64,000 bases of DNA from Vibrio sp. SCSIO 43137 (GTDB taxonomy: Bacteria > Pseudomonadota > Gammaproteobacteria > Enterobacterales > Vibrionaceae): contig NZ_CP116383.1 of assembly GCF_028201475.1 (NCBI RefSeq), positions 2,418,001 to 2,482,000 on the forward strand. Reading direction: 5' to 3'. Both the position numbers and the translations under genes were made by a program. Below, piece by piece: positions 3,490 to 25,007 of the stretch; position 1 is the stretch's first letter, and each line of letters opens with the position of its first letter. Below the pieces are notes generated by a model. That model saw only the letters and a program-made list of their open reading frames with translations. It was not told the DNA's origin and did no database searches.

Positions 3490-4578
3490 TTATTCAATTT
3501 CCGGTGTATCGGTTTTCACTGCAAAGTTCTGCCCGCGATGACGAAGCAGATGGTCCATTAGTACAATAGCGAGCATAGCCTCGGCAATGGGCACAGCACG
3601 AATTCCGACACAAGGGTCATGACGACCTTTAGTAATAAGCTGGGTAGGCTCACCCTCTTTGGTTATGGTCTCACCCGGTACTGTGATACTAGAAGTAGGT
3701 TTAAGTGCAATATTAGCAACAATCTCCTGTCCGGTGGAGATACCTCCTAAAATGCCACCAGCATGGTTTGATTTAAAACCTTCCGGTGTAAGAGGATCGC
3801 GATGTTCACTGCCCTTCTGGGCAACAACATCAAATCCGTCACCTATCTCAACCCCCTTCACCGCATTGATGCTCATCAAAGCATGAGCAATATCCGCATC
3901 AAGACGATCAAATACAGGCTCACCTAATCCAACCGGAACATGAGTCGCTACAACCTGAAGTTTGGCACCAACCGAGTCGCCCTCTTTCTTAAGATCACGG
4001 ATTAACTGGTCAAATTCAGCCACTTTATCGGCATCAGGGGAGAAAAATGGGTTGTTTTCAATCTCATTCCAATCAACTTTATCGATTTTCACATCACCCA
4101 TTTGTGATAGATAAGCACGAATTTCGATACCAAATTCCTGAAGAAGGTACTTTTTCGCAATAGCACCAGCCGCAACCCGCATAGCAGTTTCACGGGCAGA
4201 AGAGCGGCCTCCCCCCCGGTAATCCCTTACACCATATTTCTGATGATAGGTGTAGTCTGCGTGACCAGGACGGAACTTGTCTTTTATCTCAGAATAATCT
4301 TTTGACCTTTGATCGGTATTTTCGATCAAAAGGCCAATAGAGGTACCGGTTGTTTGACCTTCAAATACACCTGACAGAATTTTCACCTCATCAGGTTCTC
4401 TGCGGGCGGTGGTGTAACGTGATGTTCCCGGACGACGACGATCCAAATCCTTTTGCAGATCAGCTTCCGTGATTGCTAACCCCGGAGGACAACCATCAAC
4501 AATACACCCTAAGGCGATTCCGTGACTCTCTCCAAAGGTGGTTACCCGAAAGTGCTGACCAATACTATTTCCTGCCAT
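3490..4578 (-). CDS. aroC: Chorismate synthase
   Basis: Chorismate synthase performs the seventh shikimate-pathway step, the anti-1,4-elimination of phosphate from EPSP to chorismate. It needs reduced FMN. The 362 residues match the bifunctional-length bacterial enzymes. Signature stretches are visible: [18 protein letters not shown] at the N-terminus, the [14 protein letters not shown] block with its conserved histidine, [11 protein letters not shown], and near the end [18 protein letters not shown], which carries a conserved Asp. The family's three signature regions are all intact. It is cytosolic and tetrameric by family knowledge. The start is the ATG giving MAGNSIGQ. It lies upstream of epmC-yfcL and about 150 bases after prmB, separated from it by a strong terminator. 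Confidence 0.98.
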
Positions 4579-10214: not shown

Positions 10215-12326
10215 CTATTTATAGAAAGAGTCGCCTTTCTCGTAACGAGTCAGCAAACCATCACATGGTGCAAAACGATCGCCATGTTTCTGGGCATACT
10301 CCTGCATCAGTTCCACTAGCGCCTTGATACCTATCTGATCCATATACTTAAACGGACCGCCCAGGAATGGCGGGAAGCCGATACCAAAGATGGCACCAAT
10401 ATCTCCGTCTCGCGGACTGCGGATAATACCCTCATCCAGACAGCGGACAGCTTCATTCAGCATAGGAAGAACACACTTCAGGGCAAGTTGCTCCTTGTCC
10501 TGCGAAGCAACCGGCTCCAGGTTCAGCAGTTTGTAAACCGACTTGTCTACCTGTTTCTTCTTACCCTTATAGGTGTAGAAACCTTTACCACTCTTGCGAC
10601 CTTTTCTGCCGTCATTTAGCAGGGTATCGAATACATCCGGTCCCTGAAAACGCTCACCCAGTTCATTTACAAGAATTGGTATTATTTTTGCGCCAATATC
10701 AACACCGACTTCATCCAGTAGTGTTATCGGACCGACCGGAAAACCGAAATCCAGCAGAGCATTATCCAGCTCTTCTATCGGCTCTGAAGCCAGCAGCAAA
10801 CGAGCAGCTTCATTCATATATGGTGCGAGTATGCGGTTGACATAGAAACCAGCGCTGTCTTTAACAACGATAGGTGTTTTGCCTTGCTTACGGGCAAAGT
10901 TAACTACGGTAGCTATTGTCTCATCTGACGTAGTTTTATGGGGAATCACTTCAACCAACGGCATTTTCTCTACCGGGCTAAAATAATGCAGACCCACCAC
11001 ATTCTCAGGACGCTCTGCCTGTTCAGCAATTTTATGAATAGGCAAAGAAGAAGTATTTGTGGCGAAAACCGTCTCTTTACCGGTATTCTGCTCGATATCT
11101 GCGACCATCTTCTGCTTAAGGTCGAGATCTTCGAATACCGCTTCTACCACCAAATCAACGGATTGATAGGTAGTAAAGTCTGTACCACCGGAAAGCTGCA
11201 TCATCTTCTGCTGCACACCAGCTTTAGATAGGATGCGACGCTTGCGCTGTTTCTCAAATAGCTTGTAGTTATAGTTCAGGGCATTAAGTACCCCGTCATT
11301 GGAGACGTCTTTTATACGAACCGGTACTTTGGCTTTCGCCACGCTAACATGGCTGATACCGGCGCCCATTAAGCCGCCACCAAGTACTCCTACACGGTTA
11401 ACCTGCGCTGGTTTTGCATCGGAGCCGTTATCTTTCTTCATCTCAGTGGTGGCAAAAAAGATGGATCTCAGCGCCTGAGATTCCGTTGTCATCACCAGCT
11501 TGCCGAACTGCTGCGCTTCATAAGCCAGACCTTTATCCAGCCCTTTTTCCAGACCGTGACGAATGACATCTAAAATGGCTTTAGTTGCAGGATAGTTACC
11601 ACGGGTTTTCTGCTCTGTTTTCTTGGCAGCCTGATCGAAAATCACTTTTCTGCCCAGACCATTTCGTGAAATCAGCTTCTCTTTACCCGTGGTTTTCAGT
11701 TTACGTTTAGGCTTTTGTGCAAACTGAGCCGCTATCTCCAGCAGAATACTGTTTGGTACACTTGCATCTACCAGCCCTAATTTCAGGGCTTTTTTCGCCC
11801 GCAGCTGTTTACCCGTCAGAATTAGGTCAAAGGAAGGCAGCAAGCCAATCAGTCTCGGCAACCTTTGAGTTCCCCCCGAACCCGGCAACAAGCCAAGCTG
11901 AACTTCCGGCAACCCTAAGCGGGTTTTATCGTCATCAGAACAAACACGATAGTCACAGGCCAAAGCGAACTCTAGGCCACCACCGAGACAGACACCATGA
12001 ATAGCAGAAACAACCGGAAACTTAAGTGCTGAAATCCGGTTAAATACTTGCTGGCCTTTTGCTGCCAGCGCTTCCGCTTCCTCTGCAGACTGGCAGGCGT
12101 CCAGCATTTTTACATCGGCACCGGCAATAAAGTTATCGGCCTTACCGGAGTGAATTACCAGCCCCTTTATCCCCCGCTCATTCGTTTCGAATTCTTCCAG
12201 CAGCCCTTCCATCTCTTCAATCAGGTCTGCTCGCAGAACATTCATCTTCTCATCGCTGACATCAATAGAAAGCCAGCCAATCTTGTTATCATCAATATTT
12301 AACTGTAGTGATTTACTCTGGCTCAT
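10215..12326 (-). CDS. fadJ: FadJ, multifunctional beta-oxidation alpha subunit
   Basis: FadJ carries enoyl-CoA hydratase and 3-hydroxyacyl-CoA dehydrogenase activities and works in complex with the thiolase FadI, mainly under anaerobic conditions. The 703 residues show an N-terminal crotonase fold (about 1-190, with the oxyanion-hole stretches [10 protein letters not shown] and [18 protein letters not shown]). A linker follows, then an NAD-binding domain beginning [16 protein letters not shown] near residue 315. The C-terminal dehydrogenase domain includes [17 protein letters not shown]. It shares the A of TAATG with the fadI stop, so translation is coupled. The short length compared with FadB (about 720) and the partner order thiolase-then-alpha point to FadJ rather than FadB, whose order is reversed. 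Confidence 0.97.
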
Positions 12327-13633
12327 TATTCAACCTCCAGTACCATTGCTGCCCCCAACCCACCGGCTGCACAAGCTGTATTCAGTGCCAGACCGCCTCC
12401 GCGACGTTTTAGCTCTCTGAGAGTCTGTACCATCATTCTGGCACCAGTGGCCGCGAACGGGTGGCCATAGGCAATTGAACTGCCCAGAACGTTAAATTTA
12501 TCCATATCGATTTCGCCGATGGCTTTGGAGCGACCCAGCTTTTCCTGAGCAAACTTATCACTGGCAAACATTTTTACATTTGCCAGAGTCTGAGCAGCAA
12601 AAGCTTCATGCATCTCAATCAGATCCAGATCTGACAGCGTAATTCCAGCTCTGTCCAAAGCAACGGGGGTAGCGTAAGAAGGGCCCATCAACATATCTTG
12701 TTCAACCTGATTAGCAGAAAATGCGTAAGAGCGGATATAACCCAGTACATCTAAACCAAGTTCTTTCGCTCTTCCTTCACGCATTATCAACACGGCTGCT
12801 GCACCGTCGGTTAACGGTGTACTATTTGCTGCGGTAACGGTACCGAACTTGCGGTCAAAAGCAGGGCGCAGTTTTGCATAACTCTCAATTGAGGAGTCGT
12901 GGCGGATATTATTGTCCTCATCAATCCACTGCTTATAAGGTTCAGGGAAAGCCGTCATGACTTCATCACGGATCTTGCCCTCTCTCCATGCCTGTGATGC
13001 TAACGAGTGTGAACGATGAGCGAGTTCGTCTTGCTGCAGACGGGTAATAGCATAGGTTTTAGCCATCTGTTCAGCGGTTTGACCCATCGACAAGCCAGTG
13101 GAGTACTCTGCTACGGCAGGAGGAACTGGCGCCAAATCCTTCAATGACAAGCTTCGGGCAATTTTGATTTTTTTACTTAATGTTTTCGCTTTGCTCAGCG
13201 CCAGTAAACCAGCGGCCAGTTTCTTTGACACCCCAATAGGCAACACAGACGAAGAGTCCGCACCGCCGGCAATACCAATATCAATGGTTCCGGCCATAAT
13301 ACTCTCAGCAACATTTACTGAAGCCTGAAAACTGGTTGCACACGCTCTGGTCACACTATAGGCATCAGTCGCCACATTCATGCCTGTGCCAAGCACTATC
13401 TCTCTGGCGATGTTCGGCGCCTCAGGCATTTGCACCACCTGCCCGTAAACCACTTGCTCAACCAGCTTAGGGTCAATATCCGTTCGTGACAGTAGTTCGC
13501 TCACGACCATCTTGCCCATATCTACTGCCGGCACCTTACTGAACTCTGTACTTTGGCGCGCAAATGGTGTGCGCAAACCGGACACAATGGCGATACGCTC
13601 ACCAGAGCCGGTCCTGACGTCTTGTCTGCTCAT
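12326..13633 (-). CDS. fadI: FadI, 3-ketoacyl-CoA thiolase
   Basis: FadI is the thiolase of the anaerobic-type beta-oxidation complex and cleaves 3-ketoacyl-CoA to acetyl-CoA. The nucleophilic cysteine is Cys98 in [11 protein letters not shown]. The C-terminal catalytic histidine lies in [12 protein letters not shown], and the second cysteine in [15 protein letters not shown]. The length of 435 residues is typical of FadI and longer than FadA (about 387). The ribosome site AAGGAGAAAAA lies directly before ATG and is unusually strong. A FadR-like operator sits about 20 bases upstream of the start, just downstream of a good sigma-70 promoter, consistent with repression relieved by long-chain acyl-CoA. 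Translation is coupled to fadJ by a one-base overlap. Confidence 0.97.
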
Positions 13634-13652
13634 TTTTTCTCCTTTGCCTTAG

Positions 13653-13663
13653 AGGTCTGACCA
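13653..13663 (-). promoter_or_regulatory. FadR-like operator before fadI
   Basis: On the minus strand this reads TGGTCAGACCT, matching the FadR core TGGTCNGACC(A/T). It lies a few bases downstream of the predicted -10, around the start of transcription, where a bound repressor would block fadIJ. Confidence 0.8.
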
Positions 13664-13668
13664 TCACC

Positions 13669-13696
13669 ATTGTAACGATAATGTTACAATTTTCAA
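13669..13696 (-). promoter_or_regulatory. Predicted sigma-70 promoter of fadIJ with overlapping 20-bp dyad
   Basis: On the minus strand TTGAAA (13691-13696), a 16-base spacer and TACAAT (13669-13674) make a good sigma-70 promoter. A perfect dyad TTGTAAC-N6-GTTACAA (13670-13689) covers the spacer and -10, suggesting a second regulator besides FadR. It resembles a TyrR-type box (TGTAAA-N6-TTTACA) at 10 of 12 core positions, but that identity is uncertain. Confidence 0.6.
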
Positions 13697-13847
13697 ACGC
13701 CCGTTTAATAAATTACGGTATTTAAGACGCTAATTTAGAAAAAACTAGAAAAGAATGAAATAGTTAGCTTGTACTATACATCTGAATGGGTATGGATTGT
13801 CGGCGGGAAAATGTGTAAATTATGCTAGATTTCTTAGAAAAATAAGC

Positions 13848-13876
13848 AAAAAAAAACCACACTATACGGTGTGGTT
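13848..13876 (-). terminator. Rho-independent terminator of the candidate small RNA
   Basis: AACCACAC (13855-13862) pairs with GTGTGGTT (13869-13876) around six bases, and a run of nine T follows on the minus strand only. No coding gene on that strand lies immediately upstream, which implies an RNA gene. Confidence 0.85.
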
Positions 13877-14030
13877 GGAATCTTTATAAAACAATTAACT
13901 TACGCCAATTGAAAATAATCAGTTTCCTGATTAGGAGAAAGTAAAGTCAGCCTTCAAAAGGAAGTGTCATCTTGCTCAACATACTAGCTCAGAGAGCTAG
14001 CCAGATGACAGGGTTACTATAACCCGATAC
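13848..14030 (-). ncRNA. Candidate structured small RNA between fadI and the ECF sigma gene
   Basis: The minus strand shows a chain of hairpins in order. GGGTTA-TAG-TAACCC is at 14011-14025. An 8-bp outer stem TGTCATCT/AGATGACA (14003-14010 with 13965-13972) encloses CTAGCTC-TCT-GAGCTAG (13984-14000). Then come CTTC/GAAG (13952-13964) and a 7-bp hairpin with a GAAA tetraloop, TAATCAG-GAAA-CTGATTA (13916-13933). A rho-independent terminator AACCACAC/GTGTGGTT (13855-13862 with 13869-13876) follows, with nine T residues. A pyrimidine-rich single-stranded stretch containing TTTCTCCT (complement of 13933-13940) is an anti-Shine-Dalgarno-like seed. The 5' end is a guess based on a possible TTGATC-N17-TCTGTA promoter. 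It could instead be a leader of something unknown, but no downstream gene lies before the terminator. I do not recognise it as a named RNA. Confidence 0.6.
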
Positions 14031-14111
14031 AGACATAAAATTTTGAAGTAGATCAATTTATTGTTGATTTTACCATTACCATGTACGGCAAAAGGGCAAA
14101 CGGAGGCTCAT

Positions 14112-14675
14112 GTGTCGATAATTAATCTTTTTGGAAAGAAAAAGGCAAACAGTCCGGTCAACTCTGACATGGACAAACAAAGGAAATACGAATCTCTTGT
14201 TCGTGCTTATCATAAAGACCTTTTTCGCTACGCCTATTGGCTATGCAAAGACAAGTCGATAGCCGAAGATCTTGTTCAGGAAACCTGCCTAAGGGCATGG
14301 AAATCTCTGGACAGCCTTCAGGATGAAAAAGCCGCTAAATCCTGGCTTATCACCATCCTGAGAAGAGAGAATGCAAGACGATTCGAAAGGAAGCAGCTGG
14401 AATTAGTAGATATCGATGACTATGGCAGCGAAGCTAAAGTCAGTGATGATGCTCATCACCAGCAAAAATGGATTCAGGCGCAGATAATGAAACTCGAAGT
14501 AGAATACAGAGAGCCACTTTTTCTGCAGGTCGTAGGTGGGTTTAGCGGAGAAGAGATTGGTAATATTCTGGATCTCAATAAAAACACCGTAATGACACGA
14601 CTATTCAGAGCAAGAAATCAACTGAAAGAAATGATTGATTCATCAGAAAACGACATGGGGCTGAAAAATGGATGA
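14112..14675 (+). CDS. ECF-type sigma-70 family RNA polymerase sigma factor
   Basis: This extracytoplasmic-function sigma factor of 187 residues has only regions 2 and 4. Region 2 reads YHKDLFRYAYWLCKDKSIAEDLVQET and continues RAWKSLDSLQDEKAAKSWLI. Region 4 carries the helix-turn-helix GEEIGNILDLNKNTVMTRLFRARNQL. The start is taken as GTG at 14112 because a perfect GGAGG lies five bases upstream; an earlier TTG at 14061 has no ribosome site. Its last eight bases overlap the next gene, a probable anti-sigma factor, so the two are translationally coupled. Two FadL-type porins follow. The signal and regulon are unknown; the neighbours suggest an envelope or fatty-acid cue. Confidence 0.92.
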   Translation: MSIINLFGKKKANSPVNSDMDKQRKYESLVRAYHKDLFRYAYWLCKDKSIAEDLVQETCLRAWKSLDSLQDEKAAKSWLITILRRENARRFERKQLELVDIDDYGSEAKVSDDAHHQQKWIQAQIMKLEVEYREPLFLQVVGGFSGEEIGNILDLNKNTVMTRLFRARNQLKEMIDSSENDMGLKNG

Positions 14676-15384
14676 TCTAGAATTTCGTCGTCGAATACTT
14701 TCAGAGCCAAAGTATCGCGACAGTGAAATAAATGACGTAATCAACCTTTCGGAAGCCAATAGCAAATTTGCCGATGAGATTCTGAGTCTTGATGCTCAAA
14801 TTGAACAAGCAATGAAAGTTGACGTTCCGGACGATCTCGCCGATCGCATCTTGTTTAAGCAGAATGCTCAGTCGGAGAGTAAATCTTTTACTAAACAGAT
14901 GCTGGCAATGGCTGCATCCGTAGCATTTGCAGCTGGCGTGTTAATAGGCCAGATTAACTGGGCACCACTTGTTGTCAGTCCGGCTTATGCCAGCCTGGCG
15001 GATACCGCTGTCCAACATGTGATTGATGAGTCGCCTTTTACTAACCGACTGGATGAGAAGGTAAGTTCGAAGCAAGTTAACGCTAAATTACAGCCATTTG
15101 CCTACGAGTTTACCGAAAGTTTTCCATATCATGTTTATTATCTAAACCATTGTGGTTTCGGAAATTCTAATGCCCTTCATATGGTGTTTCAGGGTGAAAA
15201 AGGACGTATCACCATGTTTGTTACCAATATAAAATCAGAGCAAGCCGTTGATTTTAATGAAGATAACATGTCAGGGACGGTAGTTCCTATTGAGAACTCA
15301 AGTATGATTCTGGTAGGCGAGAAAGACGAAAACATTAATAAAATTGCCAGTAACCTTTCCTCCATCATAAAACCTATACTTTAG
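14668..15384 (+). CDS. DUF3379 membrane protein, probable anti-sigma factor
   Basis: This 238-residue protein matches the DUF3379 family. It has a cytosolic N-terminal part of about 77 residues (MDDLEFRRRILSEPKYRD at the start), one membrane segment at about 78-95 (LAMAASVAFAAGVLIGQI), and an outer C-terminal domain of about 140 residues. That is the layout of single-pass anti-sigma factors. It overlaps the preceding ECF sigma gene by eight bases. The outer domain is rich in polar and beta-forming residues and has a single cysteine (YYLNHCGFGNSN), of unknown meaning. The gene ends at a strong terminator, so sigma and anti-sigma form their own two-gene operon separate from the fadL genes. Anti-sigma function is inferred from layout and coupling. 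Confidence 0.85.
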   Translation: MDDLEFRRRILSEPKYRDSEINDVINLSEANSKFADEILSLDAQIEQAMKVDVPDDLADRILFKQNAQSESKSFTKQMLAMAASVAFAAGVLIGQINWAPLVVSPAYASLADTAVQHVIDESPFTNRLDEKVSSKQVNAKLQPFAYEFTESFPYHVYYLNHCGFGNSNALHMVFQGEKGRITMFVTNIKSEQAVDFNEDNMSGTVVPIENSSMILVGEKDENINKIASNLSSIIKPIL

Positions 15385-15457: not shown

Positions 15458-15527
15458 ACCATCAAAATTACCCCACAATCATGTAAGATACCCACCAGTT
15501 TTGCTAATTTCTCTGCATTTTAGCTAA

Positions 15528-15552
15528 TGGTCGGATTTCTCGTCGTTATAAT
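15528..15552 (+). promoter_or_regulatory. Candidate promoter and FadR-like half-site for the first fadL
   Basis: TATAAT (15547-15552) is a perfect -10, but the -35 is poor. TGGTCGGATTT begins at 15528 and keeps one full half of the FadR core but not the second half, so FadR binding here is doubtful. Confidence 0.4.
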
Positions 15553-15634
15553 AGCAATTACTATCAGCCACAAAACAGAGCAAAAGCTCGATTCTATCGC
15601 CCAAAGAGGCGAATTTTACAAAAGGGAAATACTA

Positions 15635-16858
15635 ATGAATAAATCGCGTCTGTTTAAAAAGTCGATTATTGCAGCGACTGTCGCTCTTGCCTCTCAGCAA
15701 GCTCTAGCTGCCGGCTTCCAGTTAAACGCTCAATCTGCAACCGGCCTTGGCCGTGCATTTGCCGGTGATGCTGTTATCGCAGATAACGCATCTGTAATGG
15801 CCCGTAACTCAGCGGCTATGGCTCTTTTTGACGAAACGTCTCTTTCACTGGGTTTTGAATCTATTACTTCAAAAATTAAAGTAAAAGATGCTAAATACAC
15901 TGTAAATGTAGGTGCCGGAGCGGGCACATACGACTCCAATGAAAGCGATGCTGGTGCAACTTCAATCGCACCTAATATCCACGTTATTGTACCTATAGAT
16001 GACAAATGGGCTGTAGGTGTTAATGCATATTCTAATTTTGGTACGCGTACTGATTTCAGCAGCAGCTTCGTTGGTTCAGAGTATGGTGGCAAAACTGAAA
16101 TCGTTAGTATGAACATTGGTACAGCTGCATCATATCGTATTGATGAACAGTGGAGTATTGGCGCCGGACTGGACTTCATCTACGGAAAAGGAACTCTAAA
16201 GAGAGATCGTAGTGTACAGCTTGGTGGAACAAACGCAGTAGATGTCAAAGATGCTGACGGTTGGGGAGTAGGCTTTAATGTAGGTGGTGTTTATGAAATG
16301 GATGAAAATAACCGTTTCGGCCTGGCATATCGTTATAGCCCGACGATCGAAGCCAAAGATGGAAGCCAGAAAATCAAGCTGCCTCTTCCTGATATTGCTG
16401 AGTTCTCAGGCTTCCACAAGCTAGAAAATACTGATTTTGCGGTTCACTATAGTTTCCAGTATATCGGATGGAAAGCGTTCGATAAGCTAACTCTTAACGG
16501 AAATACCCTTAAGGACTACAACTGGAAAAATGCCTATCATATCTCTCTAGGCGGTACTTACTATCTTAACAAAGACTGGACACTACGTGCTGGTTATATG
16601 TTCGATGAGTCAGCTCAGGATAAAACAACTTCTTTCTCAGTACCTGATTCAGATCGTCAGTGGTTCTCAGCAGGATTTACTTACCACCTAACTGAGAAAT
16701 CAAACGTAGACTTCGGATTCACTTATTTGCTAGGTCAAGATGTTAACGTATCTGAAAGCTCAAACCTACCAAACACCAATATTGTTGCTTCAACAATGAC
16801 GGGTAAAACTCACGCAGATGCAATCCTGATGGGTCTTCAATATAGCCGTAGCTTCTAA
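15635..16858 (+). CDS. fadL: FadL-family outer-membrane transport protein (first copy)
   Basis: This outer-membrane beta-barrel of the FadL/OmpP1/TodX family takes up long-chain fatty acids or other hydrophobic compounds. From the ATG giving MNKSRLFKKS there is a signal peptide of about 26 residues ending QQALA-AGFQLNAQ. The mature N-terminus AGFQLNAQSATGLGRAFAGDAV is the family hallmark and forms the inward hatch. The C-terminus ends in aromatic YSRSF, the outer-membrane insertion signal. An upstream in-frame ATG at 15527 would bury the signal peptide, so the ATG with AAAGGGA upstream is preferred. The mature protein is about 380 residues, somewhat shorter than E. coli FadL. It has its own terminator, so it is not in an operon with the second copy. 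Confidence 0.92.
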   Translation: MNKSRLFKKSIIAATVALASQQALAAGFQLNAQSATGLGRAFAGDAVIADNASVMARNSAAMALFDETSLSLGFESITSKIKVKDAKYTVNVGAGAGTYDSNESDAGATSIAPNIHVIVPIDDKWAVGVNAYSNFGTRTDFSSSFVGSEYGGKTEIVSMNIGTAASYRIDEQWSIGAGLDFIYGKGTLKRDRSVQLGGTNAVDVKDADGWGVGFNVGGVYEMDENNRFGLAYRYSPTIEAKDGSQKIKLPLPDIAEFSGFHKLENTDFAVHYSFQYIGWKAFDKLTLNGNTLKDYNWKNAYHISLGGTYYLNKDWTLRAGYMFDESAQDKTTSFSVPDSDRQWFSAGFTYHLTEKSNVDFGFTYLLGQDVNVSESSNLPNTNIVASTMTGKTHADAILMGLQYSRSF

Positions 16859-17166: not shown

Positions 17167-18447
17167 ATGAAAACGAATAAAACTCTTATCTCTCTTGCTA
17201 TTTCAGGTGGGTTATTGGCAGCAAGTGGTAGTGCCTCTGCAGCAGGCTTTCAGCTTGCAGAATACTCAGCGACAGGCCTAGGCCGCGCATACGCAGGTGA
17301 AGCTGCAATGGCGGATAATGCCAGCTCACAATGGCGTAACCCGGCAATGCTAACTTACCTTGAGGGCACTCAGCTTTCTTTAGGTGCTATCTATGTTGAT
17401 CCAAATATTGACGCTAAAGGCACAGTAACTCAAGGCACTAGCTATGCCGTTGATTCAAATGATTATGCTGATGATGCTGTTATTCCTAATGCCTATATTT
17501 CTCATCAGTTTAACGATCAGTACTTCGCAGGCTTTGCTCTATCTTCAAACTATGGAATGAAAACCGATCTAGGTTCTGACTATGCTGCCAGCCACTTTGG
17601 TAATAAAGCTGAAGTAAAAACCATGGAGGCCAACCTAAACCTTGGCTATAAGCTTACCGAAGCCGTTAGCTTAGGTGGTGGTATACGTTATATTGTTGCA
17701 GAAGGTCATTTTGGTGCAGCAGCGCCATCTCATGTTCCTGGTATAGGTGGTTCGACTCTAAAATATATGGAAGGTGATACCACTGACTGGGGTTGGCAAA
17801 TTGGTACAGCATGGCAGATTAATCCAGATCATCGTATTGGTATTACCTATAAGTCCGAAGTAGATTTAAATCTAAAAGGTAAAGCAAATGGAATCGGATT
17901 CAGGTCAGTAACTCCATCAGGCAGTACTGTTCCAGGGAGCCTACCACTAACCTTACCAGCTACAGCCGAAGTTGCTACATACCACCAGCTAACGGATAAA
18001 TTTGCTATCCATACCAGCTTTAACTGGACTGACTGGAGTAGCTTTGAAAAATTAGAAGCAAATCTAGGTAGCTTTGGGAAAGACGTTGTTAAGGAAGAGA
18101 AATGGGAAGACAATTATCGTTTTGCCATTGGTACAACTTATAAGTACAACTCTAAATGGTTAGTACGTTCTGGAGTGGCTTATGATACTTCAGCTGTTAG
18201 CGATAAATATCGTTCTGCTACCATTCCAGAAACAGACCGCATTTGGCTAAGCTTGGGGGCTGGTTACCAGTGGTCCGAACAATTAAACCTTGATGCTGGC
18301 TTTACCTATATTTTTGCTAAAGATGCAAGTATAGATGAACCTAGAGATTCCTCTGACAATCTAGCCGCAGGTATCGGTGGGACATTTAAAGGTGAAACAT
18401 CAGGAAATGTAATTATCTTTGGTGTACAAGCCAGCTATAAATTTTAA
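17167..18447 (+). CDS. fadL: FadL-family outer-membrane transport protein (second copy)
   Basis: This second FadL paralogue of 426 residues resembles the first. The signal peptide ends near ASGSASA-AGFQLAEYSATG. The mature start AGFQLAEYSATGLGRAYAGEA matches the FadL hatch, and the NPAMLTYL stretch that follows (the NPA motif) is better conserved than in the first copy, where it reads NSAAMALF. The C-terminus ends VQASYKF, an outer-membrane targeting end. No strong ribosome site precedes the ATG. A FadR-like palindrome lies upstream, so this copy is more likely the fatty-acid-regulated transporter and the first a diverged duplicate. It converges on mlaA, with a GC-rich hairpin in the gap. Confidence 0.95.
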   Translation: MKTNKTLISLAISGGLLAASGSASAAGFQLAEYSATGLGRAYAGEAAMADNASSQWRNPAMLTYLEGTQLSLGAIYVDPNIDAKGTVTQGTSYAVDSNDYADDAVIPNAYISHQFNDQYFAGFALSSNYGMKTDLGSDYAASHFGNKAEVKTMEANLNLGYKLTEAVSLGGGIRYIVAEGHFGAAAPSHVPGIGGSTLKYMEGDTTDWGWQIGTAWQINPDHRIGITYKSEVDLNLKGKANGIGFRSVTPSGSTVPGSLPLTLPATAEVATYHQLTDKFAIHTSFNWTDWSSFEKLEANLGSFGKDVVKEEKWEDNYRFAIGTTYKYNSKWLVRSGVAYDTSAVSDKYRSATIPETDRIWLSLGAGYQWSEQLNLDAGFTYIFAKDASIDEPRDSSDNLAAGIGGTFKGETSGNVIIFGVQASYKF

Positions 18448-19352: not shown

Positions 19353-20567
19353 TTAATACTGTTTATCGATGGATAATGCAACTGGTTTACCCAGCTCTAC
19401 CACCGGACTTTGACCATACCAGTCACCCTCTTTGGTGGCGACATTACCATCAATATCAACCCTGACTTTCACTAATATGGTTTTAAGGCTGGAAAGGCTC
19501 TGTCCTTCTATCATTACATTACCGTCATCCAACACGACAGTTCTTGGGAATGAGCCCAGCGGGAATCGTGCTGCCGCCATTGGAATAGGTGAACCATTAC
19601 CATCATGTACCGAAACAATCAGAGAAGCGTTGTCAGGAAGCTGAGCACTGTCACTCAATGATATAGTCACCGGAACATTAATATCAGATACAAGTTTACC
19701 AAGCGCTTTCTCGGCATTGCTGATGCTTCTTTCCAGCATATTGTAACGGTTATCTTCCGGCCCAATTAGTTTCTGCATAGTGCGCCAGTAACGAATAGCT
19801 TCTGTGTACTCCTGACGCTGATATGAGTCAAACGCCAGCAGGGAATAAACCCGTAAGTCCACATAGTTGTTCTGAATCAGACCAATAAGTAACGAACGTG
19901 CCAGACTATGTTCAGCGTCATCCTGAGACATCATCATCGCTTGTGCATAGCCCAGCTGTGCATCCGGATCGTCTGGCTTAAGAGTATAAGCACGTTTCAT
20001 GGCACCTGTTGCTGTAGAACCATCACGATTAGCCAGAGCAATACGGCCAAGCAACAGCCAGCCAGCAGAGTCTTTCGGCTGGTAGTGCAGCCTTGTTCTC
20101 AGGGCAAGTGTCAGATCAGCCATCTCTTCATCGGTCAGGCTCTCTCCTTCCGGAGCCATCAGTTTCTTAGTCAAAGCGGGTAACTGGCCGTTAATATCCT
20201 GCCAGTGAGTCACCTCTTCCATTGCGCCAAACTTAAAATAAAGCAGGAAGCTGACAGCAACTACCAGAACAAAAGACGGAATAAACACCTGCATAGGTGA
20301 AAACGAGGAAACGCCTTTTTGCTTCTCATCTGACGGAATATCATCCAGAAGAGACAGTTTAAGATCCTGAATCAGCTCATCACTGTCAGATACAACCCCT
20401 TCCGATGCCTCTTCTTCAAGCTCTTCAAGTCTGTCTTTATAAAACGCTTTGTTAAGCTCATCACGACGGGCGTCATCATCAAAACTCTGCTTGCGGAAAA
20501 GCGGAAGTGCGATAAATACCGCAGACGCAGCCAGAAGAATAATTGCGGAAATCCAGAAAGTCGTCAT
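19353..20567 (-). CDS. ccmI: CcmI (CycH), apocytochrome c chaperone subunit
   Basis: CcmI holds apocytochrome c for heme ligation by the CcmF/CcmH module. Two membrane segments are visible: the first at about 3-22 (FWISAIILLAASAVFIALPL), and the second near 92-112 (MQVFIPSFVLVVAVSFLLYF). A cytosolic loop between them contains the leucine-zipper-like acidic segment KAFYKDRLEELEEEASEGV. The periplasmic C-terminal part carries tetratricopeptide-like repeats (LLLGRIALANRDGSTATGAMKRAYTL and the following block). The length of 404 residues is typical. It shares one base with the ccmH stop and is the last gene of the ccm operon. Confidence 0.93.
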   Translation of the reverse strand: MTTFWISAIILLAASAVFIALPLFRKQSFDDDARRDELNKAFYKDRLEELEEEASEGVVSDSDELIQDLKLSLLDDIPSDEKQKGVSSFSPMQVFIPSFVLVVAVSFLLYFKFGAMEEVTHWQDINGQLPALTKKLMAPEGESLTDEEMADLTLALRTRLHYQPKDSAGWLLLGRIALANRDGSTATGAMKRAYTLKPDDPDAQLGYAQAMMMSQDDAEHSLARSLLIGLIQNNYVDLRVYSLLAFDSYQRQEYTEAIRYWRTMQKLIGPEDNRYNMLERSISNAEKALGKLVSDINVPVTISLSDSAQLPDNASLIVSVHDGNGSPIPMAAARFPLGSFPRTVVLDDGNVMIEGQSLSSLKTILVKVRVDIDGNVATKEGDWYGQSPVVELGKPVALSIDKQY

Positions 20568-21043
20568 TATTTCTTATCTCCGTTCTCTTCTTTCAGTAGC
20601 TCTTTTAAGCGTTTCTCTTTATCTTTATCCCATTCAGCTTCTTTTACCGCTTTGGCGGATTTCTTACGGCCGTTAATAACAATAATGCTGAACCCAATCA
20701 GGATCACCGCTAAAGGTCCAAGCCAAAGTATAGCGGTTGCCGCCGTTACCGGAGGATCATAAGTAACAAAGTTACCGTAGCGGTCAATCATATAATCAAC
20801 GATCTCATCAGAAGACTTCCCTTCTTTGGTCATCTCATACACTTTTACCCGCAGATCTTTTGCCAGCTCAGCATTGGAATCACTAATGGTATTGTTCTGA
20901 CACTTAGGGCAACGAAGCGTCTGGCTCAGCTCTTTAAACTGCTGCTCCTGATCTTCGTTGTCGAACTCATACACATCAATAGCAGCCGAAGCAGTAAGAG
21001 AAAATAGCAGTGCAGTAAAACCAGTTAACAGTAGTTTTCTCAT
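20567..21043 (-). CDS. ccmH: CcmH, cytochrome c maturation thiol-reductant
   Basis: CcmH helps reduce and present the CXXCH heme-binding site of apocytochrome c. The signal peptide ends near LTASA-AIDV. The family motif LRCPKCQN places redox cysteines at residues 45 and 48. A single membrane segment lies near 105-125 (ATAILWLGPLAVILIGFSIIVI), followed by a lysine-rich cytosolic tail. The 158 residues correspond to the short CcmH form, with the TPR part encoded separately as ccmI. It overlaps ccmG by four bases (ATGA) and ccmI by one base. Confidence 0.95.
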   Translation of the reverse strand: MRKLLLTGFTALLFSLTASAAIDVYEFDNEDQEQQFKELSQTLRCPKCQNNTISDSNAELAKDLRVKVYEMTKEGKSSDEIVDYMIDRYGNFVTYDPPVTAATAILWLGPLAVILIGFSIIVINGRKKSAKAVKEAEWDKDKEKRLKELLKEENGDKK

Positions 21044-21594
21044 GACTTGCCCTCCTCAATCATCTGAAGATAAAGAGGTTCCAGGGTCTCAGCCCAGTTA
21101 CGCGGATTCACATCACCTACATGGCGATAGCGGATAACACCATTAGCATCGATAAGGTAAGTCTCCGGCGCACCGTAAACACCTAAATCAAGACCAAGCA
21201 TGCCGTCACCATCGAAAAGGCTGATCAGGTATGGGTTACCTAAATCATTTAACCACCCCGTAGCTTTAACACGGTCATCTTTATAGTTAAGGCCGATAAT
21301 CTTAACACCACGCTCTGCCAGCTGATTAAGATACTGGTGCTCTGCGTAACAGGTAGGACACCATGTTGCCCATACGTTCAGCAGTAAAGGCTCGCCTTTA
21401 AAGATGGCCTGATCGTACAGCTTACCCGGCTCAGCCAAGTCTTCCAGACGAAACTCAGGTACTTCTTTACCAATCAAAACAGATTCAAGCTTAGTCGGAT
21501 CATCACCTTCAGCATTACGGAATAGCTGAGAAGCCAAAGGGATCGCCATTATCAAAAATAGCACTAACGGTATAAACAATACTTTCTTATTCAT
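21040..21594 (-). CDS. ccmG: CcmG/DsbE, thiol:disulfide oxidoreductase for cytochrome c maturation
   Basis: CcmG is a membrane-anchored thioredoxin-fold reductant that keeps apocytochrome c or CcmH cysteines reduced. An uncleaved N-terminal anchor lies at about 4-22. The active site is WATWCPTCYAEH, with cysteines at 79 and 82. The acidic-motif region and the family's cis-proline area near GVYGAPETYLID are intact. The length of 184 residues is typical. It begins two bases after ccmF and overlaps ccmH by four bases, so translation is tightly coupled. It is also known as dsbE. Confidence 0.96.
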   Translation of the reverse strand: MNKKVLFIPLVLFLIMAIPLASQLFRNAEGDDPTKLESVLIGKEVPEFRLEDLAEPGKLYDQAIFKGEPLLLNVWATWCPTCYAEHQYLNQLAERGVKIIGLNYKDDRVKATGWLNDLGNPYLISLFDGDGMLGLDLGVYGAPETYLIDANGVIRYRHVGDVNPRNWAETLEPLYLQMIEEGKS

Positions 21595-21596
21595 AT

Positions 21597-23573
21597 TCAG
21601 GCCCTTACTTCCTTAGCTTGAACGTTTTCTTTGGCTTTCTTTCTAAAGCGGTAACGCTTATCACTGATGGCGATCGCACCACCTAAGGCCATCAACAGGC
21701 TGCCTGCCCATATCCAGCGGATAAAGGGTTTATAGTACAAGCGAACTGCCCATGCATTTCCGTCATCCAGACGCTCACCCATTGCAATATAAAGGTCGCG
21801 GGTAACACCAACTTCCAGAGCCGCTTCCGTCATCATAGAACGGGCTGTACGGTAAAAACGTTTTTCAGCATGCAGGGTATTTACATACTGACCGTCTTCA
21901 GTGATTTCAAAGTCGGCAATATAACCGTCATAGTTAGGACCGTTATTTTCCCTAAGGCCTGAGAAATAGAAATCGTAGTCGAGAATCTGGAAGCTTTCAC
22001 CGGGGGCTAGTCTGACATCACGTTCAATGCTGTAGTTCTGCACCATAGCAATACCGATAACAGAAACTGCCAGTCCCACATGGCCTAAAATCATCGACCA
22101 ATGACTCTTCTGAATCTTCTTCAGACCTGCCATAAAGGTGTGGCGGTGAGTAGCACGCTGATAGATCTCAACGCAGTGCATAGTGATAATCCAGTAAGCC
22201 ATCACCCAGCCAAGATAAGCCATACCCTGGAAGCTGCCTGCAAACAGAAGGACACTTGCCGCGGCCAGAACAAGGGACAATACCGCACATAAGGCCATCG
22301 GCTTAATCAGAGTAGAAACATTGTCTCTCTTCCAGCGGATTAGCGGACCGATACCCAACAGGAATGAGAACGGAATCATCAGCCATGCAAACAGAGTATT
22401 AAAGAATGGCGCACCGATAGAGACAGAGCCCAAACCAATCTGTTTGTGAATTAGCGGCAGAAGCGTACCCACCAGCACCACAACCAGCGCAGCAACTAAC
22501 AGAATATTGTTTGCTAACAGGCCATTCTCACGTGAGAAGAGCGCAAAGTTGCTTCGTACCCTGACTGTTGAGCCTTTCAGGGCAAACAGCAGTAGCGAAC
22601 CACCGATAACAAAAATCAGGAAGCCGAGAATAAACATGCCCCGCGCCGGATCGGAAGCAAAGGCGTGTACCGAAACAAGGATACCGGAACGAACAAGGAA
22701 GGTTCCGAGCAAGCTTAATGAGAATGCAGAGATTGCCAGCAATACCGTCCACGCTTTAAAGGTACCGCGCTTCTCTGTAACCGCCAGTGAGTGCATCAAA
22801 GCTGTACCGGCAAGCCAAGGCATAAACGAGGCATTTTCTACTGGATCCCAGAACCACCAGCCGCCCCAGCCGAGCTCATAATAAGCCCACCATGAACCAA
22901 GGGCGATACCCAGCGTCAGAAACAGCCATGCTGCCGTTGTCCACGGACGGGACCATCTTGCCCATGCGGTATCCAGTCTTCCTGTCATCAGCGAAGCAAT
23001 GGCAAAAGCAAAAGCAACGGAGAAACCAACATATCCCATATACAGCATAGGCGGGTGAATAATCAGACCCGGATCTTGTAGTAACGGGTTTAGATCCCGG
23101 CCGTCAATTGGGAACATTGGCAATGTTCTTAGGAACGGGTTGGAGGTAAGAATAATAAACAGCAGGAAACCAACGGTAATCATACCCATTACCGCCAGGA
23201 CTCTTGCTACCGACTCCTGAGGCATTCCACGGCTAAACACCGCTACAGCAACTGTCCAGCCAGCCTGGATCAGAACCCAAAGTAGCAGAGAGCCTTCATG
23301 AGCCCCCCATACCGCCGTTAGGCGATAATACCAAGGCAAGGCGCTGTTTGAGTTACTGGCGACATACTTGATAGTAAAGTCGTTGGTATAGAAAGCCCAA
23401 AGCAAGATGCAGAATGAAAGCATCAGCATCAGGAACATTCCACATGAAAGAGGACGAGCCGTGCTCATCAGCATATTGGACTGTTTAGATGCCCCTATCA
23501 GGGGCAGTATGCTTAACAGAATTGATAAGCCTACAGAAACGATCAGCGCAAAGTGACCAATTTCAGCAATCAT
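21597..23573 (-). CDS. ccmF: CcmF, heme lyase of the cytochrome c maturation system
   Basis: CcmF ligates heme from holo-CcmE to apocytochrome c. The 658 residues carry some 15 membrane segments. The tryptophan-rich WWD heme-handling domain is clear as [21 protein letters not shown] near residue 230-250. Conserved histidine neighbourhoods appear in [16 protein letters not shown] sequence near residue 90 ([14 protein letters not shown]) and in the second half ([10 protein letters not shown]). A large periplasmic loop follows near 500-610. It overlaps ccmE by four bases and sits two bases before ccmG. Confidence 0.97.
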
Positions 23574-24055
23574 TGATCACTTCCTTTTAGTTGCTCTTCA
23601 CTATAGCCCATTGGTTCATGAACCTTCTCCATCGCTTCAGCGACCTCTGGTGGCATATAGTTTTCATCGTGTTTTGCCAGCACTTCAAACGCTTCTATTG
23701 TGTCAGCAGTTTTAAGCACACCCTGAGCGACAATGCCCTGCCCTTCACGGAACAGGTCAGGAAGAATTCCGTCATACTCAATAGTCACTTTCGGTCCTAC
23801 ATCTGCAAGGTCAAAACTGACTTTCAGCGAGTTAGGATCACGTCGCACCGAACCTTCCACAACCATACCGCCAATACGCAGACGCTGACCAACTTCTGGC
23901 TTAGTACCGTCTGGTTTACCGTAAACCAGCTCTGTCGGAGTGAAAAATAGATCCATATTCTGGTTAAGGGCATACAGAACCAGCCCTATGGTTGAACTAA
24001 CCCCGATAAACAGGGCAAGTATAATACCGAGTCGTTTTTTTCGTCTTGGGGTCAT
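23570..24055 (-). CDS. ccmE: CcmE, periplasmic heme chaperone
   Basis: CcmE binds heme covalently and carries it from the CcmABCD release complex to CcmF. It has an N-terminal membrane anchor (about 10-30) after a positively charged start [10 protein letters not shown]. The OB-fold domain ends in the heme-attachment motif [11 protein letters not shown], with His129 as the covalent ligand and Tyr133 as the axial ligand, in family numbering terms. The length of 161 residues is normal. It overlaps ccmD and ccmF by four bases each. Confidence 0.97.
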
Positions 24056-24258
24056 AATGTGTTCTCCAGATTCTTCGCTGCTTCAATTCGGGCTTGTCTC
24101 TCCTGCTTGCTCTTAATCTCATTTTTGATTTTTTTACTGGTAGCAAGGCTGTTTACCAGCAATATAATCATGGCAAGTGCGGTCACGCCATAGGCGCCCC
24201 ATACATACCCGCCATATCCACCCATAGCGAAGAAATCGCTTAAGCTTTCAAATTGCAT
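24052..24258 (-). CDS. ccmD: CcmD, small membrane adaptor
   Basis: CcmD is a single-pass protein that helps release holo-CcmE from CcmC with the CcmAB ATPase. It has 68 residues. [20 protein letters not shown] leads into one membrane segment, [19 protein letters not shown], then a charged cytosolic tail. The N-terminal [15 protein letters not shown] pattern is the family signature. It overlaps ccmE by four bases and follows ccmC by five. Confidence 0.93.
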
Positions 24259-24263
24259 AATGA

Positions 24264-25007
24264 TTAAGACCTCTCAGATGAAACGAGCGACTGAACCCAT
24301 GGTCTGTGGCTCTCTTTAGACAAAATTTCGTTTTTATAACGCACCAGTGACACGCTGGCGAAAAAGAAGGCGAAGCCAAATATGTTCAGTAGCAATGGCC
24401 AAAGCATATCGGACGAAATCGATGGTTTATCAAACTTAGTAATCGTAGCTCCCTGATGCAGGGTATTCCACCACTCTACCGAGAAATGAATAATTGGCAG
24501 ATTGATAACACCCACGATGGCAAGAATACCAGCGGCTTTGGCTGCTGTTTTCTGATCATCGAAGGCGTGATAAAGAGCAATAACACCTAAGTAAAGGAAC
24601 AGCAGAATCAATTCAGAAGTTAAGCGGGCGTCCCATACCCACCATGCGCCCCACATAGGTTTACCCCATACTGCGCCGGTTAACAGGGCGATAAAAGTAA
24701 ATACAGCACCAACCGGAGCCATAGCGGCGGCGGCCATATTGGCAAGGCGTAATTGCCAGACCAGTCCGATAAAGGCAGAAATTGCCATAGACATATAAGC
24801 GCCCATGGACCAGATTGCTGACGGAACGTGAATATAGATAATCCGGAAACTGTCACCTTGCTGATAATCGGAAGGAGCAAAAGCGAGCCCCCAGACAGTA
24901 CCAACAGACAGACAAACAATAGCTATAACGGCAAACCAAGGGAGCAACTTACTGCAAAGATTGTAAGTTGTTTCTGGCTTTGAATAGGGGTGGAGCCACT
25001 TCCACAT
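24264..25007 (-). CDS. ccmC: CcmC, heme delivery to CcmE
   Basis: CcmC loads heme onto CcmE at the periplasmic face. The 247 residues form six membrane segments. The WWD heme-binding signature is visible as WGAWWVWDARLTSEL near residue 115-130. Conserved histidines occur before and after it (IYIHVPSAIWS and NLPIIHFSVEWWNTLHQ). It starts 107 bases after the ccmB stop, the largest internal gap of the ccm cluster; I see no terminator or clear promoter in that gap. Confidence 0.97.
   Translation of the reverse strand: MWKWLHPYSKPETTYNLCSKLLPWFAVIAIVCLSVGTVWGLAFAPSDYQQGDSFRIIYIHVPSAIWSMGAYMSMAISAFIGLVWQLRLANMAAAAMAPVGAVFTFIALLTGAVWGKPMWGAWWVWDARLTSELILLFLYLGVIALYHAFDDQKTAAKAAGILAIVGVINLPIIHFSVEWWNTLHQGATITKFDKPSISSDMLWPLLLNIFGFAFFFASVSLVRYKNEILSKESHRPWVQSLVSSERS

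Follow-up and report, generated by a model that had tools for sequence, protein, structure and literature searches.

Within the window, that is, the whole stretch of 64,000 nucleotides that was analysed, a short RNA gene on the minus strand is found between fadI and the divergently oriented gene of an ECF sigma factor (Table 1). The DUF3379 gene behind the ECF gene possibly encodes the anti-sigma factor of this ECF sigma, and it is followed by two genes for FadL-type outer membrane proteins (15527-16858 and 17167-18447). Just upstream of fadI, at 13651-13662, there is a FadR-like palindrome with a GGTCAGACC core, which recurs in the majority of the upstream regions of fadI that were compared. 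Farther away, the minus strand carries the cytochrome c maturation genes ccmC, ccmF and ccmI (NCBIfam, 19353-25007).

Table 1. Features at the sRNA locus and at related places, in coordinates of the window
Feature	Position	Strand	Remarks
sRNA transcript	13848..14008	-	about 161 nt, predicted from promoter to terminator; 5' end inferred near 14008, plus or minus 2
FNR-like activator box TTGATCTACTTCAA	14043..14056	-	9/10 to the FNR consensus
-10 hexamer TATAGT of the sRNA promoter	14016..14021	-	inside GGGTTATAGTAACCC, earlier taken for a hairpin
5' stem-loop	13966..14009	-	7-bp outer stem around a variable 8-bp inner stem, conserved GUUGAGCA between them
Linker ACUUCCUUUUGAAGGCUGACUUUACUUUCUCC	13934..13965	-	32 nt, unpaired, nearly invariant; proposed mRNA-pairing region
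Stem-loop 2, UAAUCAG-GAAA-CUGAUUA	13916..13933	-	7-bp stem, GAAA loop
Stem-loop 3, CAAUUGGC-GUAA-GUUAAUUG	13892..13911	-	8-bp stem, GUAA loop
Intrinsic terminator	13848..13876	-	8-bp stem, nine U (nine T in DNA)
fadI	12326..13633	-	TIGR02446; downstream neighbour; ribosome site 13636-13643
ECF sigma factor gene	14112..14675	+	PRK12517 type; divergent from the sRNA
DUF3379 gene	14668-15384		follows and overlaps the end of the ECF gene
Predicted target site AAAAGGAAGTG	23578..23588	-	ribosome site of ccmF (gene 21597-23573)

The minus-strand element is a real, structured and conserved small RNA (sRNA) gene, and much of what a sequence-only reading of this DNA had claimed about its form stands: the strong terminator, the hairpin closed by a GAAA tetraloop and the outer stem that encloses an inner stem are all present. 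The region 13830-14060 folds at -57.1 kcal/mol (z -3.39), and none of 200 shuffled sequences was equally low. The linker region holds CUUUCUCCU and CACUUCCUUUU, and TTTCTCCT at 13933-13940 is, as had been pointed out, complementary over 8 bases to the ribosome site of fadI.

A DNA search matched the region in 34 of 61 genomes; every one of these belongs to the same genus, of which 37 genomes were included. Further loci came from named genome contigs (the best 80 of 300 relatives). Of 110 candidate loci, 109 gave a match, the exception (L105) being a contig end beside an ECF gene, and the set comprises 101 distinct extended regions and 90 unique sRNA sequences, 58 of which were picked by eye for spread and aligned. 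Along the region, conservation is raised at the box near 14060, lower in the inner stem and close to complete between 13980 and 13920, and the linker is near-identical across the 58 sequences. The structure is formed in 98.0% of the cells of this alignment, and slid versions of it are all far worse than the true register. Compensatory changes in the stems, which had been named beforehand as a check, occur at 11 pairs changed on both sides, corresponding to 103 cells compared with a shuffled mean of 34.1, a value that none of 500 shuffles attained. In the 5' stem-loop, all eight inner pairs (94.7% of cells paired) and two of the seven outer pairs (99.3%) have changed on both sides. Stem-loop 2 (98.5% of cells paired) has no such pair, stem-loop 3 (98.9%) shows one-sided changes only, and the terminator helix is paired in 98.9% of cells.

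A covariance search across Vibrionaceae, the other comparative check proposed earlier, extends the family well beyond this alignment, as the model R1 matched 252 of 296 Vibrionaceae genomes from 9 of 13 genera (E 0.01). Across 247 genomes drawn from the order it gave 14 matches at E 0.001, all of them in Vibrionaceae. Since both of these large searches used stricter filters, weak members may have been missed. R1 found no match in 44 of the 296 family genomes, and the 20 listed among these all belong to the same genus and range from 1.0 to 4.5 Mb; G014, G015 and G026 are among the genomes without an R1 match. For a view of distant loci, the best 30 of 35 matches from 33 distant genomes (8 genera) were used, with the five weakest left out, and the linker core CTTCC-T(n)-GAAGGCTGACTTTACTTTCTCC is exact in 22 of these 30. 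Judged by eye, a much longer insert replaces the inner stem of the 5' hairpin in L250, L252 and L254-L261 (genera g27, g30 and g32), and the same loci carry an extra conserved GATTGCTTTCC element before the terminator that is absent from the Vibrio alignment. From our point of view, the family alignment could found a new Rfam entry.

An Rfam scan, likewise proposed beforehand, revealed no family at gathering score anywhere in the 64-kb window, and the earlier label of an unannotated sRNA is hence correct as far as Rfam is concerned. It does not hold for the literature: the RNA is not new, because its counterpart Vcr043 has already been published from V. cholerae. Place (between an ECF sigma gene and fadI), strand (opposite the ECF gene) and size (161 nt predicted here from promoter and terminator, about 160 nt there) all agree, VC1046 presumably being fadI, and we infer from these matches that the two RNAs are also the same by sequence. 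According to the accessible parts of the reports, Vcr043 is encoded between VC1045 (ECF sigma) and VC1046, opposite VC1045, appears at about 160 nt on Northern blots with similar levels through growth in LB, which gives no sign of control by oxygen, and causes roughly 3-fold higher rpoS translation when overexpressed (PMC8545128). It was recovered with Hfq by RIL-seq, GFP reporters in E. coli validated four targets, grxA, vc0036 and sdhC among them, and a part in electron transport was suggested from its targets (PMC9732341); processing intermediates were tied to RNase E (PMC7398697). In these same parts, transcript, Hfq-bound duplexes and reporter effects on targets have been shown by others for the V. 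cholerae RNA (PMC8545128, PMC9732341), the target effects being those of genes from V. cholerae, with part of the tests done in E. coli, and thus of another species than the source of the window. As far as its accessible text goes, this literature describes the RNA in one species and deals neither with oxygen control nor with its range within the family.

What is new here is a strictly conserved FNR-type promoter in front of an RNA that is itself known from V. cholerae, which would predict control by oxygen. A TTGA-N6-TCAA box lies upstream in 97 of the 101 aligned loci and reads TTGATCTANTTCAA in 96 of those 97, which agrees with 9 of the 10 defined positions of the FNR consensus. Exactly 21 bp after the box, a TATA[GTC]T hexamer starts in 94 of the 97 loci; in the remaining three the script picked an earlier TATA. 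Among the 30 distant loci, the box scores 9/10 in 27 and 8/10 in three, and a -10-like hexamer is placed exactly 21 bp past it in 29, the exception being L247, where the best-scoring box lies elsewhere. The box is centred about 41.5 bp before the predicted start, and the usual FNR class II geometry has one bp more than the 21-bp spacing between box and -10 seen here. A consensus promoter scan found no -35/-10 pair at the sRNA promoter, which is in line with an activator-dependent promoter. TATAGT is conserved, but other genera do not retain the palindrome around this hexamer, so that GGGTTATAGTAACCC (14011-14025) most likely belongs to the promoter; of the five hairpins described earlier, four are stem-loops of the RNA, whereas the fifth would be part of the FNR-type promoter, which that reading had missed.

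Searched for as TTGATNNNNWTCAA-N20-22-TANNNT, the same arrangement has 14 matches in the source genome and none in a reversed control. Eight of the 14 are one repeated sequence, a checked copy of which lies upstream of a 16S rRNA on the other strand. Besides the sRNA there are five other distinct, non-repeated matches, one preceding grcA (TIGR04365), one preceding the gene of the hydrogenase 2 small subunit (NF007779) and three without an assigned gene. Both grcA and hydrogenase 2 are classical FNR targets, and a single base distinguishes the hydrogenase 2 box, TTGATCTAAATCAA, from the sRNA box as it stands in 14 of the 101 loci. Two FNR-like boxes lie in tandem before grcA (L307, C1:531553-531592 of the source genome), as is also known from E. 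coli, and the match is to the upstream one. An fnr-type gene above the family cut-off was found in 35 of 37 genomes, including this one. The window itself has the box pattern at two places, and since one of these is palindromic, three strand matches result compared with 0.69 expected. Three are reached by 5 of 100 shuffles; it is conservation and geometry, and not the rarity of the box, that carry the argument for FNR. At 3866-3879, inside the predicted coding region 3490-4578, the FNR-type site TTGATGCTCATCAA forms a perfect palindrome. Judged from this promoter architecture, FNR is the putative activator and oxygen the putative signal. In the accessible parts of the literature, we found no work linking Vcr043, or sRNAs in Vibrio, with FNR; putative sRNAs are reported there to respond to nitrate in V. 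cholerae (PMC11980369).

Two other ways of controlling the same RNA can be imagined. The box might be a CRP site, so that the sRNA would respond to the carbon source and not to oxygen. CRP and FNR bind related palindromes that have the TGA-N6-TCA core in common, and this core is retained in the box; yet where CRP needs the G and C of TGTGA/TCACA, the conserved box has T and A. The accessible part of a V. cholerae CRP ChIP-seq study gives, in its Table 1 and for one condition (fructose minimal medium), peaks at VC1034 and VC1073 and no peak between them (PMC6050953). With the key G and C absent and no peak in this interval, we regard regulation by CRP as unlikely. Alternatively, the divergent ECF sigma factor might drive the RNA, which would then be a member of the ECF regulon. 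The two genes are divergent neighbours, and in V. cholerae, following the accessible text, the predicted promoters overlap and the start sites of Vcr043 and VC1045 are 25 bp apart (PMC8545128). However, the -10 hexamer is of the sigma-70 type, and the distant loci speak against this link: while fadI adjoins the sRNA in 29 of the 30 loci, an ECF gene was found in 24 (tblastn, loci of about 3.2 kb), and four of the five loci with fadI and no ECF gene found (L244, L245, L246 and L265) have box and spacing intact, L247 being the exception. Since box and spacing persist where no ECF gene was found, it is the RNA, and not the ECF gene alone, that the box serves, and we think it very unlikely that the ECF sigma factor drives the RNA. 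The link to the ECF sigma pair that had been drawn earlier is therefore correct as adjacency, but it is positional only.

With respect to targets, the linker forms its best duplex among the window genes with ccmF (-30.0 kcal/mol), where an 11-bp perfect match covers the ribosome site; of 400 shuffled linkers, 9 had a match of this length somewhere. In relatives, this match is mostly 7 to 9 bp long, extends to 11 with one G-U in three and is absent in some. Both ccmF and the next downstream gene (21040-21594) have at least 8 bases of perfect linker complement at their start. For grxA, the linker-complementary ribosome site AGGAGAAA is present in 15 of 19 genomes of the genus and in 1 of 8 genomes of other families (Fisher p 0.0025, with kinship ignored). 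Four genomes of the genus lack it. Among them are G014 and G015, the only two of these 19 genomes in which the DNA search had found no sRNA, an observation that is small and after the fact; a joint loss of the sRNA and its grxA target site is possible in these two. In sdhC, codons 8 to 11 hold an 11-nt stretch with one mismatch, which is subject to coding constraint and comes out best in only 7 of the 26 loci parsed. When the source genome was searched for a rigid 16-nt complement of the linker, there were 59 matches, the sRNA locus included, compared with 118 in a reversed control. Of 30 loci taken from these 59, 28 were inspected, L277 and the sRNA being set aside. A possible start codon follows closely in four of the 28, and a normal-looking ribosome site is present at L286 only (MscS-like by reading). 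With a single normal-looking ribosome site among those inspected, the search lends no support to long perfect target sites. An 11-nt search found five places: besides the sRNA locus and the ribosome site of ccmF there were three more, one preceding a possible small gene. When the complete sRNA was folded with grxA and sdhC, the duplexes came out long and meaningless, and this approach was dropped. The exact pairing sites and the direction of most target effects are to be taken as predictions.

The earlier reading had imagined a trans- or cis-acting regulator of targets of the Shine-Dalgarno type, possibly fadI. A trans-acting RNA with an anti-Shine-Dalgarno-like region is supported by its conservation and covariation as well as by what has been published on Hfq and targets for the V. 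cholerae counterpart, but fadI does not rise above background: at least 8 bases of perfect complement occur in 3 of the 58 window genes, 73 of 400 shuffled linkers equal the 8-bp match of fadI, and by duplex energy (-20.4) fadI ranks 8th among the window genes. With an 8-bp match within background, fadI is no better a candidate than its Shine-Dalgarno makes it, and it is a possible target. The RNA could also be a cis element or local regulator of fadIJ, acting as a leader, as an antisense RNA or by pairing specific to its neighbour, in accordance with the near-constant adjacency of fadI and with the presence of AGGAGAAA before fadI in 72 of 102 loci. Against this, the sRNA and fadI are separated by a strong terminator, and what is complementary to the linker is nothing but the Shine-Dalgarno. 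A promoter of its own is suggested for fadI by a promoter-like site at 13696-13669 (near chance level) and by the FadR-like site. The V. cholerae counterpart moreover acts on unlinked mRNAs according to the accessible parts of the reports (PMC8545128, PMC9732341), and we consider a local role of this kind improbable. A literature search for VC1046 and VC1047 with fatty acid found no paper. As for the nature of the RNA, GcvB is the best sub-threshold Rfam match and covers the full model, but its 25.7 bits fall short of the gathering score of 42, a separate GcvB with 94.1 bits exists in the same genome (G000:C1:758473-758678) and many further weak GcvB matches are spread across the genomes searched, so that a GcvB copy was rejected as extremely improbable. 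Hardly any credence can be given to the idea that the conserved core is kept for a micropeptide, MLSKMTLPFEG. Most of the 58 sequences in the alignment keep its frame open; however, the start codon position varies (ATG, GTG, AAG, ACG and others), 11 of 12 g32 loci and both g30 loci have an interrupted frame, and the sequence changes track stem pairing, for which reasons it was rejected.

Taken together, we consider it probable that the window RNA is an Hfq-type Vcr043 counterpart of about 160 nt that is activated by FNR when oxygen is short and pairs through its linker with mRNAs of respiration and redox functions. The gene, its structure, its conservation and the architecture of its promoter are directly evident from the comparisons above. 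The sRNA would be transcribed from its own sigma-70 promoter, which has no recognisable -35 and carries the FNR box at a class II activator position, and because of this position it is expected to be made under low oxygen, when FNR is active. Together with Hfq, the single-stranded linker would then pair to ribosome sites or early codons of the respective mRNAs, those of grxA, sdhC and VC0036 being published and that of ccmF predicted as targets; most of them would presumably be lowered, while rpoS translation would be raised. Respiration would in this way probably be retuned by the sRNA when air runs out. If this is true, the FNR-type promoter would name the controlling signal for Vcr043, for which the accessible parts of the Vcr043 literature name none, and it would also render the published set of electron-transport targets coherent.

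Somewhat less firmly, we lean towards the wider reading that Vibrionaceae possess a dedicated oxygen-responsive sRNA, a counterpart of FnrS whose FNR promoter has a fixed geometry and whose linker is almost frozen across at least 8 genera; this RNA would couple the loss of oxygen to the control of respiratory and redox genes (sdh, grxA, ccm) and to RpoS. Such an RNA could have arisen independently, or it could share a common ancestor with FnrS from which nothing but the logic of the promoter and the ACUUCC-U(n)-GAA core survives.

FnrS of E. coli K-12 is likewise an sRNA that ends in a terminator, and it has an FNR-type box, TTGAGCGAAGTCAA, centred 42.5 bp before its annotated start, compared with about 41.5 bp here. 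Its core reads ACTTCC-T6-GAA, that of the window RNA ACTTCC-T4-GAA; the motif ACTTCC-T(n)-GAA, which was chosen after both RNAs had been seen, occurs in 1 of 5000 shuffles of the window RNA, and a plain 10-nt word common to both RNAs is reached by 109 of 5000 shuffles. In contrast, FnrS has other neighbours (zntB and ynaL instead of the ECF gene and fadI), a length of 122 nt and other stems. R1 scores 11.2 bits on the FnrS locus (E 0.007 in 601 bases) with the two cores not aligned, and the Rfam FnrS model has no match in 13600-14300 when all families up to E 10 are considered. Because of the missing Rfam match, the other neighbours and the unaligned cores, we do not file the RNA as FnrS; the resemblance in sequence is suggestive of direct homology with the E. 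coli RNA, and by analogy we hold with moderate confidence that the sRNA may work like FnrS. In Neisseria meningitidis, an FNR-controlled Hfq sRNA for oxygen limitation, reportedly named AniS, is said to have been the subject of a 2011 study, and its title-level description, to which this comparison is confined, follows the same logic of an oxygen-limitation sRNA under FNR. If our reading is true, Vibrionaceae would gain a branch of oxygen-responsive sRNAs of the kind that is known from enterobacteria and Neisseria.
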